The notes under the pieces were generated by a model, which saw only the letters and a program-made list of their open reading frames with translations, was not told where the DNA came from and searched no databases. Positions 4,018-52,213 of a stretch of 64,000 nucleotides of DNA are shown here, piece after piece. The stretch's first letter is position 1. Every line of letters starts with the position of its first letter. The DNA comes from Hyalella azteca (Eukaryota > Arthropoda > Malacostraca > Amphipoda > Hyalellidae), in contig NW_025932718.1 of the NCBI RefSeq assembly GCF_000764305.2, positions 1 through 64,000 of the forward strand, written 5' to 3'. Position numbers and translations under genes: made by a program.

Positions 4018-4850
4018 AAATTTTCAATCGGATTTAAGTCCGGCGACTGGCTTGGCCATTCCATAACGTGTACATTTCTATCAGCGAACTATTTCTTTGT
4101 GGATCTTGCAGTATGCTTAGGATCGTTATCCTGCTGGAAAATCCAATCACCAGGTAGCTCTAGTTTCTCAACAGAAGTCGTCAAATTATTTTCCAGGATG
4201 CTCTGGTAGTTTGCAGCATTCATCCCACCATCTATAAGTGATATTTTACCAACACCTTTTGCGGAGAAACAGCCCCAGATCATGATGTTGCCACCACCAA
4301 ACTTCCCTCACTCACTCACTCACTCACTTACACCAAACTCACTGTCTTTCCTCCACACATGGTGACGATAATTTCGACCGAAAAGCTCAATTTTTGTTTC
4401 GTCCGTCCCAAGAACCTTTTCCCAAAAAGCATAGTCTTTGTCCTTATGCTCCTTGACGAATTTCAGCCTGGCATCTCGATGTCGTTTCATTAGGAGTGGG
4501 ATCTTTCTTGGGGTGCGTGATTTTAATTCGTTTCTGTGAAGTTCATTGCTTATCGTTCGTTTGGTTACTTGAATTCCTGAGGCACTCAGGTGACTTTGCA
4601 ACTCTCCTCGAGTTATCTGTGGATTTTCTTGGATTTTTCGTCCCAATAATCTAGCAGATCGTGCAGAAATCTTCCTAGGAGCACCTGATCGTCTTTGGTT
4701 TTCAACGCTGTCACGGGTCTTGAAGCGTCCAATGAACGAAGCAACTGTACTAAAAGGAACATTCAAGTGGCTAGCAATCTTCCTATAACTTTCTCCTTCC
4801 TTCCAACGCGATAGAATTAGTTGTTTGTGTGGCGGTATATGAAGATTCAA
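3837..4850 (-). pseudogene. Tc1-like transposase pseudogene
   Basis: Read on the minus strand, three blocks make up a Tc1 transposase. The first block (4850-4320) has the paired helix-turn-helix DNA-binding region (RKIASHLNVPFSTVASFIGR, GAPRKISARSARLLG) and the first catalytic Asp in TDETKIELFG. The second block (4283-4089) has [10 protein letters not shown] and the second Asp in [10 protein letters not shown]. The third block (down to 3837) has the catalytic Glu in PDLNPIENLW. Counting from the second Asp to the Glu gives 34 intervening residues, the Tc1 DD34E signature. Breaks: no ATG at the 5' end, because the inverted duplication has overwritten it; a (GAGT)n tract around 4308-4328 that shifts frame and adds a stop; and an in-frame TAG at 4089-4091 between the second and third catalytic residues. 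Confidence 0.93.
4308..4328. repeat. (CTCA)n tetranucleotide microsatellite inside the transposase
   Basis: About five CTCA units interrupt the minus-strand reading frame between the ...KDSEFG and [10 protein letters not shown] segments, introducing a stop and frame change. Replication slippage is the likely origin. Confidence 0.85.
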
Positions 4851-29085: not shown

Positions 29086-29436
29086 TTGCGGAAGCCAGTG
29101 TCAACGCTCTCGATCCCGGGTGCGATGAAAGGCGCTGGCGCGGGTGGCACAGGCGCCCAGCCTAGCACCTTCGGTGAAGAGGAGGCCGGTATAGCACTCG
29201 TAGGCGTCCACTCCGAGTATCCACGCTACGGCGACGACAAAGGCAGCAGCGCACAGAAAAGTCCGCCCAGTTATCTCTCCCGAACCAAACCCAACGTCGG
29301 CTACAGATTAGGCAGACGGAAAGCTTTGTTCGAGAAAAGAAAAAGGATATCGGACTACGCGCTAGTCATGAGCTTACTTGGCATCATCGGCATGATCATC
29401 GAGAATGAGCTCTCTTCCTTCAATGTTTATGTTAAG
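29086..29436 (+). CDS. SK: SK channel exon 2: linker and transmembrane segment S1
   Basis: Phase-0 exon of 117 codons between ...tctgtag and gtgagc. It encodes residues 381-497: a Gly/Ala-rich linker, then the conserved block TKPNVGYRLGRRKALFEKRK found just before S1 in SK channels. S1 itself is ISDYALVMSLLGIIGMIIEN (about 468-487), followed by the S1-S2 loop. Met394 (ATG at 29125) is a plausible start for a short isoform if a promoter lies in intron 1. The RKALFEKRKR stretch is part of the basic cytoplasmic face. The family match is strong; the exact limits are supported by both splice consensus and phase. Confidence 0.95.
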
Positions 29437-30041: not shown

Positions 30042-31250
30042 GATCAGATCAGATCCAATGGATCAGAGATTTTCTAGTAGGTAGACGACAACGTGTCAGT
30101 ATTAACGGAACCGTGTCAGACTGGGCATCAGTGCGCAGTGGCGTGCCACAAGGAAGCGTTCTGGGGCCTATTTTGTTCGTTGCTTTTATAAATGATCTGC
30201 CAGAAGTAGTGTCCAGCGTGTGCTCCATGTATGCCGACGACACAAAAGTTTATTATTCAGTGAAGGATGCGTCAAATAAAGCGCAATTACAAGATGATCT
30301 TGACAGTTTAGTTAACTGGGCTGATACGTGGCAGCTACGGTTTAATGCTGACAAGTGTATAGTACTTCACCTCGGGAAGAACAATGAACAGCAAGATTAC
30401 AGTATGAGAAGACATGGTTGCAACGAAAGAGTAATGATTGAAAAGTCTAGTGTGGAAAAAGATCTCGGAGTTTATGTCGACAAGGAGCTGAAATTTTCTA
30501 AGCATGTTGAAACGCAAGCTAACACATCCAACAAACTTCTTGGACTAATCAGACGCTCATACGAGTTCCTAGATGCAGAAACGATGAAGCAGTTGTTTGT
30601 TGCCGTCGTGCGCCCGAGCCTAGAGTTTGGAAACGTTGTGTGGTCACCGAGATTTGAAAAGGACAGAAATTTAATAGAGAATGTTCAAAGACGTGCAACA
30701 AGGATAATTCCAGGCTTGAAGGGCAAGTCCTATGAAGAAAGATTGAAGATTATGAAGCTTCCAAGCCTCAGTTATCGACGTATGCGTGGGGACCTCATTG
30801 AAGTATACAAGTATACTCATGGTCTATACAAGGTCCCTGAAGGGTTACTAGAATTTGAAACAAGAACCAACACCAGGGGCCACGGCTATAAGCTAAAAAA
30901 ACTGCGCTGCAACTTCTCCACGCGACAAAATTTCCTCTCGCTTCGAATCACCGACATGTGGAACAGCCTCCCCGATGACATCGTTGGCGCTCCAAGTATG
31001 AACGCGTTCAAGAACAGATTAGATAAAGCTATGGAAAAATATATGTTCAGATTTGAAATGCCTAGCTCCTTATCGAACCCGGTGGAAGTCTAGTAGCTAC
31101 TTCAAACTATCGTCAGTCATAGAAAGATCCGGTCAAATGACACGATTTTAGATCTTCTATGAACAAGGCATGAAAAGGAAAAGAATCGGCGACAGGCCAC
31201 AACAGGCCTACACTTCAGCGCCGACATCACTATGTTATGTTATGTTATGC
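30042..31250 (+). mobile_element. 5'-truncated non-LTR retrotransposon
   Basis: Contains the 3' part of a reverse transcriptase gene, a short 3' untranslated tail and a terminal (TATGT)n repeat at about 31231-31249, the kind of short 3' repeat seen in several LINE clades. The 5' break falls at about 30042, just inside the fingers/palm region of the polymerase, consistent with target-primed reverse transcription that stopped early. The protein style (VPQGSVLGPILF, YADD) resembles CR1/Jockey-like elements; the clade is uncertain. Confidence 0.9.
30053..31093 (+). pseudogene. Reverse transcriptase C-terminal fragment of the non-LTR element
   Basis: An uninterrupted frame begins after a TGA near 30039 with WIRDFLVGRRQRVSINGTVS. 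It continues through the motif SGVPQGSVLGPILFVAFIND and the catalytic MYADDTKVYY (the YADD box holds two of the three metal-binding Asp). The thumb and C-terminal domain follow (ADKCIVLHLGK, DLGVYVDKELKFSKHV, LEFGNVVWSP, VQRRATRIIPGL, SLRITDMWNSLP). The frame ends with TAG at 31091. The endonuclease, the earlier palm Asp motif and the start codon are missing, so it is a dead fragment, although the remaining reading frame is intact, implying a fairly recent insertion. Confidence 0.93.
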
Positions 31251-40553: not shown

Positions 40554-40649
40554 ACTTCGTTTCCCTCCCACGCGATCAAGGCCCTCATCAGTGTCTCGAC
40601 CGTCATCCTCTTAGGTCTCATATGTGCCTATCATGCCTTAGAAGTTCAG
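40554..40649 (+). CDS. SK: SK channel exon 3: transmembrane segment S2
   Basis: Thirty-two codons, phase 0 on both sides, between tttttcag and gtaaga. It encodes residues 498-529, with S2 as AIKALISVSTVILLGLICAY ending HALEVQ, a block strongly conserved in SK channels. It is too short and lacks a start codon, so it does not appear as an open frame of its own. It was found by reading the + strand for the S2 signature, and joins in phase to exon 2 (ends ...VYVK) and exon 4 (begins LFMIDN). Confidence 0.96.
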
Positions 40650-41760: not shown

Positions 41761-41885
41761 CTGTTTATGATCGACAATTGCGCTGACGACTGGCGGATAG
41801 CCATGACGTGGCAGCGACTGTCACAGATCTCCACAGAGTTGATCATTTGCGCTGTGCATCCGATTCCTGGAAACTATTCCTTCAG
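41761..41885 (+). CDS. SK: SK channel exon 4: S2-S3 loop and transmembrane segment S3
   Basis: 125 nt between ctcccag and gtaaaa, ending two bases into a codon. It encodes [20 protein letters not shown] and continues through S3 to [12 protein letters not shown], residues 530-571. The [11 protein letters not shown] and HPIPGNY blocks are diagnostic of SK channels. The interrupted Arg codon (AG|A) is completed by exon 5. Confidence 0.96.
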
Positions 41886-43026: not shown

Positions 43027-43156
43027 ATGGATCACAAAACTACCGAACAAAGGCGGCTCGATCGGTGACAATATCGTCTCAATGGACGTGATCTTGTCGT
43101 TACCCATGTTCCTGAGACTCTACCTCATCTGCAGAGTCATGTTATTACACTCAAAG
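43027..43156 (+). CDS. SK: SK channel exon 5: S3-S4 loop and S4
   Basis: 130 nt, starting with the last base of an Arg codon and ending at phase 0 before gtgggt. It encodes WITKLPNKGGSIGDNIVSMD followed by S4, VILSLPMFLRLYLICRVMLL, residues 571-614. S4 has only a few Arg residues (LRLYLICRV), in keeping with a Ca2+-gated rather than voltage-gated channel. The ends match splice consensus and the phase matches exons 4 and 6. Confidence 0.96.
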
Positions 43157-43499: not shown

Positions 43500-43666
43500 C
43501 TGTTCACTGATGCGTCGTCACGCAGCATCGGTGCACTAAACCGCATCAACTTCAACACGCGTTTTGTGCTCAAGACGCTCATGACGATCTGCCCCGGCAC
43601 TGTCTTGCTTGTGTTTATGGTCTCTCTGTGGATGATTGCTTCGTGGACGCTGCGCCAGTGCGAGAG
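43500..43666 (+). CDS. SK: SK channel exon 6: S4-S5 linker and S5
   Basis: 167 nt between cctcgtag and gtatgg, ending two bases into a codon. It encodes [20 protein letters not shown], then S5 ([20 protein letters not shown]) and [11 protein letters not shown], residues 615-670. The S4-S5 linker contacts the calmodulin N-lobe in solved SK channel structures, so [15 protein letters not shown] is the mechanical coupling point. Splicing is possible to either exon 7A or 7B, since both start with G to complete the Arg codon. Confidence 0.97.
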
Positions 43667-47512: not shown

Positions 47513-47648
47513 GTATCACGATGAAGATCATGATAACCTCCTTAACGCTATGTGGCTCATCGCTGTCACTATATTATGCGTTGGTTACGGTGATATTGTA
47601 CCAAACACGTACTGTGGCCGGAGCCTGGCAGTGGTCTGTGGCATCATG
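47513..47648 (+). CDS. SK: SK channel exon 7A: alternative pore loop, filter CVGYGD
   Basis: 136 nt between gatctcctttag and gtaagt, the same length and phase as exon 7B. It encodes (R)YHDEDHDNLLNAMWLIAVTI, then [16 protein letters not shown] and the start of S6, SLAVVCGIM. It covers the turret, pore helix, potassium selectivity filter and outer S6 (residues 670-715). It differs from 7B at 13 of 46 residues; the filter and [10 protein letters not shown] are unchanged, but Cys replaces Ser just before VGYGD, and Val-Cys replaces Thr-Thr in S6. Splice sites are intact and many differences from 7B are silent third-base changes, so it appears to be under selection and functional, not a decayed copy. 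Confidence 0.94.
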
Positions 47649-47914
47649 GTAAGTTTAATTCAATTGAAACAAAAGCATTATTAGCATCAATAAATATTTT
47701 AAAAAGCTCAATTAGGTTCATAGCGCGCTGTAGAACGCAGGTATCCTTCTAGAGCCGTACTATTCTCGAATTATTTTGATAATACATGTTTTTTTATTAT
47801 TTTTCTGTGCGTGTGTGTATGTCGCGTTACGTAGCGTTCGTTGTTCCGTGATCGATTATGAGTAACGCGTGGTGCCTGTGTAAGTGTTTTCTTGTCTGTG
47901 TCGCTCTTCTACAG
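47649..47914 (+). other. 266-bp spacer intron between pore exons 7A and 7B
   Basis: Begins gtaagt, ends tcttctacag. Holds two candidate RNA stems next to the 7B acceptor (listed separately) and a GTAAGTG donor-like sequence at 47880-47886 in the loop of the larger one. It is long enough to be spliced as an intron, so steric exclusion does not by itself prevent joining of 7A to 7B. Confidence 0.85.
47823..47869 (+). promoter_or_regulatory. Candidate 8-bp RNA stem upstream of the 7B hairpin
   Basis: CGCGTTAC (47823-47830) is perfectly complementary to GTAACGCG (47862-47869). Its 3' arm overlaps the 5' arm of the acceptor-occluding stem by two bases, so the two stems either abut with loss of two pairs or compete. 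Confidence 0.5.
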
Positions 47915-47922
47915 GCACCACG
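47868..47922 (+). promoter_or_regulatory. Candidate RNA hairpin enclosing the exon 7B 3' splice site
   Basis: CGTGGTGCCTGT (47868-47879) is perfectly complementary to ACAGGCACCACG (47911-47922), which spans the last four intron bases (ACAG) and the first eight exon bases of 7B. The loop is 31 nt and contains the pyrimidine tract of the acceptor. A stem of this kind would hide the AG from the splicing machinery until it is opened, a known principle of structure-controlled exon choice. The pairing is seen directly; the regulatory role is inferred. Confidence 0.7.
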
Positions 47923-48050
47923 ACGACGACCATAACAATTTTTTAAACTCCATGTGGCTTATAGCAATCACGTTCTTATCTGTTGGATACGGGGACATTG
48001 TCCCTAATACGTACTGTGGCAGAGGTATAGCGGTCACTACAGGTCTCATG
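47915..48050 (+). CDS. SK: SK channel exon 7B: alternative pore loop, filter SVGYGD
   Basis: 136 nt between ctcttctacag and gtaagt. It encodes (R)[20 protein letters not shown], then [16 protein letters not shown] and GIAVTTGLM. The Ser before the filter and the Thr before Gly-Leu-Met are the usual SK residues, so this is the form I would expect to be canonical. It is spliced from exon 6 and to exon 8 in the same phases as 7A. If 7A and 7B were both included, the frame would shift at the start of 7B and meet TAA after six codons, giving a transcript open to nonsense-mediated decay. The two are therefore best read as mutually exclusive. Confidence 0.96.
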
Positions 48051-49938: not shown

Positions 49939-50049
49939 GGCGCGGGGTGCACGGCATTGCTGGTTGCTGTCGTGTCCAGAAAAATGGAACTTTCTAGAGC
50001 CGAGAAACACGTGCATAACTTCATGATGGACACTCAGCTCACTAAAAGG
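49939..50049 (+). CDS. SK: SK channel exon 8: inner S6 and start of the calmodulin-binding domain
   Basis: Thirty-seven codons, phase 0 on both sides, between ctcggcag and gtgagg. It encodes [20 protein letters not shown], then [17 protein letters not shown], residues 716-752. The first part completes S6 and lines the inner gate; the second begins the helix that carries constitutively bound calmodulin. Sequence agreement with the SK family is near complete here. Since this exon is constant, inner-gate residues such as the Ala of GAGC do not vary between the 7A and 7B forms. Confidence 0.97.
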
Positions 50050-50509: not shown

Positions 50510-50637
50510 CTCAAAAACTCGGCAGCGAACGTGTTGAGGGAAACTTGGCTCATCTACAAGCACACAAAGTTGGTTAAGAAGATCAACCACAGCAGAGTGC
50601 GAACCCATCAGCGCAAGTTTCTTCTCGCCATCTACGC
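50510..50637 (+). CDS. SK: SK channel exon 9: calmodulin-binding domain core
   Basis: 128 nt between atgtgcag and gtgagt, ending two bases into an Ala codon. It encodes [20 protein letters not shown], then [22 protein letters not shown], residues 753-795. This is the basic, Trp-containing segment that binds Ca2+-free calmodulin and the neighbouring dimer contact. The donor used is the first of eight GTGAGT-like sites made by a 25-bp minisatellite; only this one keeps the frame to exon 10. Read-through into the repeat gives Tyr-Ala-stop, truncating the protein inside the calmodulin-binding domain. Confidence 0.97.
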
Positions 50638-50832
50638 GTGAGTAACGGCCACTCGTGTACGCGTGAGTAACGGCCACTCATGTACGCGTGAGTAACGGCC
50701 ACTCGTGTACGCGTGAGTAACGGCCACTCGTGTACGCGTGAGTAACGGCCACTCGTGTACGTGTGATTAACGGCCACTCGTATACGCGTGAGTAACGGCC
50801 ACTCGTGTACGCGTGAGTAACGGCCACTCGTA
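50633..50832 (+). repeat. 25-bp minisatellite, 8 units, overlapping and copying the exon 9 donor site
   Basis: Unit TACGCGTGAGTAACGGCCACTCGTG. Donor-like GTGAGT occurs at 50638 (the real site), 50663, 50688, 50713, 50738, 50788 and 50813; the copy at 50763 reads GTGATT. The first unit includes the last five exon bases (TACGC). The unit length is not a multiple of three. Within each unit, CGTGAGT can pair with ACTCGTG using two G-U pairs, so single units may fold over the site. Confidence 0.96.
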
Positions 50833-51066: not shown

Positions 51067-51136
51067 ATTGCGTAAAGTCAAGATGGACCAGAGGAAACTG
51101 TTGGACAATGCCAGCACCATCACCGACATGGCAAAG
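51067..51136 (+). CDS. SK: SK channel exon 10: end of the calmodulin-binding domain
   Basis: Seventy nt between cttctgcag and gtgagc. It starts with the last base of the Ala codon and ends at phase 0. It encodes LRKVKMDQRKLLDNASTITD followed by MAK, residues 796-818. LRKVKMDQRKL is the conserved helix in which Ca2+-loaded calmodulin N-lobe contacts are made. It joins in phase to the coiled coil in the last exon. Confidence 0.96.
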
Positions 51137-51559: not shown

Positions 51560-52213
51560 ATGCAAAATAACATGTACGAGTTGGTGTCTGATATGAGCGG
51601 CCGTCAGGGTGTACTGGAGGACAGAATAGCCACGGTGGAGGACAGGTTATCTCAACTGCAGGACAGTGTAGACAGTTTACCTGACATCCTCAGCCGCTGC
51701 TTGCAAGAATCGCTTGAACAAAAGCGGCCCCAGAACACCCTTCATCCTGACATGGCTGTACGGCAAACCACTCACGGTTCCACCCAACACACGCACACTC
51801 TAACGCCGTATAGTCACCCGTTAACACCACACACACACTCACTGTCTCCCACCCCACTCATACCTCACCCTCTAACTCCTCCTCGTACCACTCAGCATTG
51901 GTCGCAACAGCTACAACAACAACAGCAACAACAACAGCAACAACAACAACCTACTTCAATTCCCCCTCCTGTATATCCTAGAGCGAGCCTCAGTAACGCC
52001 TCTAGTTCCTTCGTAGGCTCTACAGCCTCCTCTACCCTTACTTCGGCGCCTCCTGCAGCTGTGAGCTCGGCTAGTAATAGTAGTAGTAGTGCTGGTGCTA
52101 CCACACAGTTAGTTGGTGCTGGTGCTACCACACAGTTAGTTGGTGCCCCTGTGGTGACATCAACCAGTAAACCTCCCTCACTACCAGCCAGAAGTACTAG
52201 CAGTGATACTTGA
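51560..52213 (+). CDS. SK: SK channel exon 11: coiled coil and Gln/Ser/Thr-rich C terminus
   Basis: Last coding exon, from atttttcag to TGA (52211-52213), 217 codons, residues 819-1035. It opens with the coiled coil that closes the SK calmodulin domain (MYELVSDMSGRQGVLEDRIA, then TVEDRLSQLQDSVDSLPDIL). It continues with a low-complexity tail: a His/Thr/Pro-rich part (TQHTHTLTPYSHPLTPHTHS), a 12-Gln tract (937-948), a poly-Ser stretch and a 27-bp tandem duplication encoding AGATTQLVG twice (52091-52144). The tail is not conserved in the family as I know it; the Gln tract is coded mainly by CAA with CAG interruptions. No PDZ-type end is obvious. Confidence 0.95.
   Translation: MQNNMYELVSDMSGRQGVLEDRIATVEDRLSQLQDSVDSLPDILSRCLQESLEQKRPQNTLHPDMAVRQTTHGSTQHTHTLTPYSHPLTPHTHSLSPTPLIPHPLTPPRTTQHWSQQLQQQQQQQQQQQQPTSIPPPVYPRASLSNASSSFVGSTASSTLTSAPPAAVSSASNSSSSAGATTQLVGAGATTQLVGAPVVTSTSKPPSLPARSTSSDT
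52091..52144 (+). repeat. 27-bp perfect tandem duplication in the SK C-terminal exon
   Basis: GCTGGTGCTACCACACAGTT plus AGTTGGT occurs twice with no differences, duplicating nine residues in frame. The perfect identity implies a recent event. Confidence 0.95.

Follow-up and report, generated by a model that had tools for sequence, protein, structure and literature searches.

Introduction

Few parts of K+ channels are as conserved as the selectivity filter, whose first residue is usually a threonine or a serine. Kim et al. (1997, J Neurosci 17:8213) are said to have described alternative pore exons in Shaker, in a gene that we take to be that of the lobster Panulirus.

Homologous tandem exons that are used exclusively of each other are known from further ion channel genes, among them cacophony, Ca-alpha1T and KCNMA1/slowpoke. 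Some of these are conserved in arthropods, and 154 genes of D. melanogaster contain such exons (PMC9741552, in the part of the text available). The terms 'KCNN', 'SK channel' and 'small conductance' do not occur in the main text of that study, and SK may be listed in its supplementary table S4. The words 'isoform', 'splice' and 'exon' are absent from the main text of two papers on insect SK (PMC3324495, PMC6771844), and the literature that we searched, mostly outside subscription journals, did not yield a description of an arthropod SK pore-exon pair by title or abstract.

Here we analyze an SK gene in a 64-kb stretch of the Hyalella azteca genome (hereafter the window). The original prediction, made from the DNA itself, was that two exons for the SK pore and filter are mutually exclusive. 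From the anatomy of the exons, their reading frames and the conservation of the pair in relatives, this is the best-supported reading: we put the probability that one SK gene carries a tandem-duplicated pore exon, of which each mRNA receives a single copy, at roughly 85%.

Results

The forward strand of the window carries an SK potassium-channel gene that spans 23 kb (29086–52213) and has 11 recognised exons if 7A and 7B are counted apart (Table 1). We located the exons by tblastn with an SK bait and delimited them by splice sites and open frame; from exon 7 on, their numbering follows the original prediction. Exons 5' of the first recognised one were not located. The protein joined with 7A matches the Pfam families SK_channel (PF03530), Ion_trans_2 (PF07885) and CaMBD (PF02888) above cut-off; judged by these domains, the product is an SK (KCNN, KCa2) channel, predicted to carry a calcium-gated K+ current via calmodulin. 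For both 7A and 7B the top PDB matches are SK2 structures, 7A being the less SK2-like copy (52 versus 62 bits).

Table 1. Exons of the SK gene and hairpin at the 7B acceptor, with positions in the window.
Feature	Length (nt)	Position	Strand	Basis
First recognised exon, N-terminal part and S1		29086..29436	+	tblastn with SK bait, splice sites, open frame
S2 exon	96	40554..40649	+	tblastn with SK bait, splice sites
S2-S3 exon	125	41761..41885	+	tblastn with SK bait, splice sites
S3-S4 exon	130	43027..43156	+	tblastn with SK bait, splice sites
S4-S5 exon (exon 6), 3' end CGAGAG (phase 2)	167	43500..43666	+	tblastn, splice sites
Exon 7A, A-type pore, filter CVGYGD, outer S6 VVCGIM	136	47513..47648	+	splice sites, frame, A side of exon tree
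Hairpin around the 7B 3' splice site, loop with pyrimidine tract, perfect 12-bp stem with an extension		47868..47922	+	folding
Exon 7B, B-type pore, filter SVGYGD, outer S6 VTTGLM	136	47915..48050	+	splice sites, frame, B side of exon tree
Exon 8, remainder of S6 and next segment	111	49939..50049	+	tblastn, frame
Exon 9, part of calmodulin-binding domain	128	50510..50637	+	tblastn, splice sites, Pfam CaMBD
Exon 10	70	51067..51136	+	tblastn, splice sites
Exon 11, C-terminal part, poly-Gln tail and stop	654	51560..52213	+	tblastn, frame

A search of the 519-Mb genome (4890 contigs) with the SK protein did not find a second SK gene: 11 of the 13 matches lie inside the window and the other two are weak, with 29% and 36% identity. 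In a tree of 34 SK proteins without their pores, which is midpoint-rooted only, the window protein adjoins that of the isopod Armadillidium (100/93) within a set of five malacostracan rows (99/96).

The window also contains fragments of a Tc1/mariner-like transposase (4320–4850, reverse strand) and, within an SK intron, of a reverse transcriptase (30113–31093, forward strand). The donor of exon 9 (TACGC/GTGAGT) opens a tandem array of eight 25-nt copies (50633–50831). By reading, the exact donor is repeated in seven of the eight, and a later donor of the array, if used, would run straight into a TGA.

Exons 7A and 7B encode the turret, pore helix, filter and outer S6 and together span exactly the predicted interval, 47513–48050. 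They are adjacent and homologous, with equal length and phase; each is preceded by an AG acceptor and ends in ATG/gtaagt, and the G that starts either of them completes the arginine codon begun in exon 6 (CGAGAG/G). Their products agree in 32 of the 45 residues with complete codons, or 33 of 46 with the shared arginine, the 13 differences being conservative in many cases. The prediction was accurate on the length, the shared arginine codon, the 3' ends and the 33 identical residues. One pore exon finds the other in the window by tblastn with an E-value of 2.5e-22; a third copy was not seen in these searches of the 64 kb, where the next best match had an E-value of 0.06 or worse.

As both copies have 136 nt, which is not a multiple of three, full channels can come only from mRNAs with a single pore exon; inclusion of both or of neither is expected to shift the frame and stop translation early. 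We translated all four splice choices. With 7A alone or 7B alone, the frame stays open to the normal stop, yielding 655 residues counted from the first recognised exon. Joint inclusion is unproductive, with a stop at residue 342, six residues into 7B as foreseen, and so is joint skipping, a case absent from the original prediction, with a stop at residue 319. By this arithmetic the double and empty forms should be removed, presumably by nonsense-mediated decay of their mRNAs.

At the nucleotide level, 7A and 7B are identical in 90 of 135 positions. The 45 differences are distributed 13/3/29 over codon positions 1/2/3, different codons are used for 18 of the 32 identical residues, and dN is 0.19 (NG86). 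When 45 random changes were placed in 7A, 17.7 residues were kept on average and 26 at most in 5000 trials, in contrast to the 32 observed, and a stop was gained in 71% of the trials. Since 32 of 45 residues were kept despite 45 changes, more than in the random trials, we conclude from these comparisons that both reading frames are maintained by selection, as the predominance of silent differences had originally suggested.

To place the two exons among their relatives, we collected the best 120 of 663, 646 and 583 matches from protein searches with the pore segments of 7A, of 7B and of an insect A type, respectively, together 226 different proteins. The sample is uneven, being rich in flies and moths, and the database is clustered at 90% identity, which can hide one isoform behind the other, so that absence of A in the listed matches is not evidence. 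We therefore make no use of the lack of A-type matches in beetles, most Hymenoptera, chelicerates and myriapods among the matches listed. The isoforms of relatives are mostly automatic predictions, and their names are those of cluster representatives.

Sorting by motif yielded 83 A and 167 B segments among the matches listed and left one unsorted, Homarus copy 1, whose end had been misread. A single branch in a tree of 61 chosen segments separates 24 A rows from 37 B rows; its support is moderate (84/91; 84% of 200 bootstrap trees) on 45 columns. Exon 7B is on the B side and 7A on the A side, where it groups with Pollicipes, Homarus copy 1 and the decapod-like sequence P0020 (98/92). Homarus copy 1 and Frankliniella copy 1, both missed by the motif rule, were assigned to A by their position; under our first labelling, with Frankliniella copy 1 in B by the motif rule, the A/B split needed two changes. 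Rows of molluscs, bats and chelicerates fall among B, and A therefore appears to be the derived copy.

The order of the two types is constant: wherever an arthropod gene model contains both, A is upstream of B, in 14 of 14 species (Timema, Gryllus, Diaphorina, Cloeon, Homarus, Colias, Spodoptera, Choristoneura, Danaus, Brenthis, Papilio, Frankliniella, Folsomia and Anopheles). Given this order and the separation of the types in the tree, the pore exon was most likely duplicated before insects, Collembola and crustaceans diverged. The question whether arthropods have the pair, raised with the original prediction, is thereby answered in part, namely for insects and crustaceans and by way of database isoforms. 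Among viral contigs, three stretches fit a search pattern and none encodes a relative.

Of seven species for which separate A and B proteins were compared, five (Ischnura, Cloeon, Folsomia, Bradysia, Aphis) have an A/B pair that agrees in every residue outside the pore, for example in 624/624, 840/840 and 873/873. The other two fail this strict test and were retained in the count as failures: over the whole length, Chironomus has 525 of 717 identical residues and Rhodnius 419 of 637, the latter with 422 of 430 over its last 430 residues, pore included. The A-type protein P0020 (610 aa; 16 members on 13 contigs), which groups with the decapods Penaeus and Macrobrachium in the pore-less tree (100/98), is found on contigs of at most 3.5 kb. 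These are too short for a 23-kb gene, and the sequences therefore most likely derive from spliced transcripts. From such transcript-like contigs and from the identity of the relatives' A and B proteins elsewhere, we infer that both exons are used in H. azteca as well.

Of the 226 proteins, 23 (22 from arthropods, one from a bat) contain two or three pore copies, mostly separated by additional residues, and we read these as gene-model errors. SK2 of Myotis brandtii (P0019) has two near-identical pore segments in a row, probably through a model or assembly error. The gene models of Timema (P0001) and Gryllus (P0002) hold three copies (A, B-like, B), which suggests a third pore exon in stick insects and crickets. 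A further variant concerns the region past the pore exon, where the usual sequence is replaced by GNG(S/T)MALVVAVL... in proteins of Penaeus (P0038), Macrobrachium (P0088), Folsomia (P0121) and Allacma (P0045); Folsomia P0017 has the usual form and the same sequence downstream. In these relatives S6 and the gate region thus appear to be encoded by a further alternative exon. A second copy of exon 8, as in Penaeus and Collembola, was not seen in the 64-kb window.

Besides differences in the turret, 7A and 7B show a key one, missed in the original prediction, at the innermost site of the filter: the first residue of the filter signature is serine in 7B and cysteine in 7A. Among the matches listed, 74 of 83 A segments have cysteine here and no B segment does; serine occupies the position in all 167 B segments and in nine A segments, the latter presumably all from Hemiptera. 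Frankliniella copy 1, assigned to A by position, has serine as well. An A exon can thus persist without the cysteine. The B segments listed have GFG in 97 and GYG in 70 of 167 cases, so that in many insects A and B also differ by tyrosine and phenylalanine in the filter.

Filters of K+ channels follow the motif (T/S)XG(Y/F)G, the first hydroxyl of which helps to bind K+ (PMC12677897, available text). The SVGYG of 7B fits this motif, whereas the CVGYG of 7A departs from it at the first residue. In the human SK2 numbering of that source, Tyr335 and His336 align to the start of the pore exon, Trp350 to the pore helix, and Tyr361 and Asp363 to positions in and after the filter. By counting, the filter starts with Ser358, which we take to be equivalent to S359 of rat SK2 and T75 of KcsA. 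In KcsA, as far as the accessible text of PMC11251424 goes, T75C removes ion site S4 and lowers the occupancy of S2, and changes at this residue cut conductance 3- to 17-fold, these being data for KcsA, not SK. In rat SK2, S359A reduces block by divalent ions (PMC12733198, in its accessible part).

Given the cysteine of A and the effects of these two mutations, we expect conduction and rectification to differ between A and B channels. By analogy, loss of the hydroxyl in A should weaken ion site S4; unit conductance and rectification would change with it, as would the block exerted by Ba2+ and by internal divalent ions, while B channels would be close to ordinary SK. Sensitivity to toxins or drugs could differ as well, through changes in the turret and outer S6. 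We thus infer that the swap would affect permeation or drug sensitivity.

The choice between 7A and 7B is probably regulated. As mechanisms of exclusion, steric hindrance and mixed U2/U12 splice sites are not supported, the former because 7A and 7B are separated by an intron of 266 nt, the latter because all three introns around the pair have GT-AG ends. It has been suggested that decay of mRNAs with two exons may contribute to exclusive splicing (PMC6071210, in the text at hand).

A test for docking-site/selector pairing, made on this one sequence, showed a hairpin at the 7B acceptor only, which might act by burying this acceptor. Its stem pairs 47868–47879 with 47911–47922. The stretch 47860–47930, picked after the hairpin had been seen, folds with −29.1 kcal/mol (z −3.38), and one of 200 shuffles was as stable. 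A stem of more than 8 bp is absent at the nine other acceptors tested, and stems of at least 12 bp occur at 11 of 3000 random AG sites, which gives a chance of about 4% for one in ten acceptors. We consider the hairpin a candidate splicing regulator, seen in a single sequence. The branch-point motif YTRAY was not found within 120 nt of the 7B acceptor, where weaker motifs are present. At the end of the 5' hairpin arm lies a donor-like GTAAGT (47880–47885), which could act as a decoy.

Discussion

The close spacing of the two copies, with an intron of 266 nt between them, would fit a recent, lineage-private duplication or an assembly artefact. The copies differ too much for this, with 45 of 135 nt changed; insects, Collembola and other crustaceans have both types; and 7A and 7B each group with their own type in the exon tree. 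We give this explanation practically no weight. That 7A could be a decaying duplicate, a dead exon no longer spliced in, might be read from its lower similarity to SK2, but its splice sites, frame and filter are intact and its residues were spared beyond random expectation. Decay of 7A in close relatives had been named as an observation that would speak against the pair, and the closest listed A-type relative, a decapod-like sequence, is 89% identical to 7A. A dead exon therefore appears very improbable.

Harder to dismiss is the explanation that both exons are used and are near-equivalent for conduction, so that the swap serves mainly regulation, for instance by tissue-specific expression or by frame-shift decay that tunes the amount of channel. 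The serine of hemipteran A exons and the conservative nature of many of the 13 residue differences would agree with this, and since an open frame requires exactly one of the two exons, the pair might work as an on/off switch. Against near-equivalence, the two types have stayed distinct at the same positions (the filter cysteine, the outer-S6 cysteine, GFG in many insect B exons) over the insect-crustacean divergence, and mutation at the filter site alters divalent block in rat SK2 and conductance in KcsA, according to the accessible text of the studies cited above. On balance we regard near-equivalent exons as unlikely.

We tentatively propose instead, at somewhat less than even odds, an ancient splice switch in the filter of insect and crustacean SK channels. 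With cysteine at the S4 site in A and serine in B (with GFG in many insects), it would provide two classes of subunits that differ in conductance or rectification and that, singly or mixed in tetramers, might tune the afterhyperpolarisation. As the same pair is found in insects and in other crustaceans, the switch looks old and is probably functional.

A filter residue has apparently been swapped by splicing since before the divergence of insects and crustaceans, a natural experiment on the role of ion site S4, in a gene that is apparently single-copy here. The SK gene of Drosophila is also called single, and a dominant-negative dSK subunit has been made by mutating 'GYG' (PMC3324495, available part). 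The function of A and B should be easy to test in this fly. The B protein of Bactrocera (P0109) carries GFG; if the fly B exon does so too, the dominant-negative mutant would be an A form, and the pair may bear on earlier work on fly dSK.

By comparison of sequences, the SK pore pair is a conserved, probably mutually exclusive exon pair that is already present in automatic annotation. Orthologous SK genes of insects and crustaceans have database isoforms with the same A and B pore exons (Ischnura X1/X4/X6 versus X2/X5; Drosophila yakuba X21), under names from automatic annotation; a functional description of them was not found in our literature searches. The filter signature of 7A begins with cysteine, as does that of KcsA T75C (PMC11251424, available part), which is a bacterial laboratory mutant, whereas 7A is a natural exon. 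With cacophony, Ca-alpha1T and slowpoke, the SK pair shares the arrangement as homologous tandem exons, of which each SK mRNA probably uses one.

Shaker, which we know by the title of the study alone, is likewise a K+ channel with an alternatively spliced pore-forming region, but it is voltage-gated and belongs to another family. Because of this precedent, splicing in the pore is less of a surprise than the original prediction held. Pore splicing was thus already known and ion channels commonly have exclusive tandem exons; the apparent swap of a filter residue in SK is an unusual twist on them.
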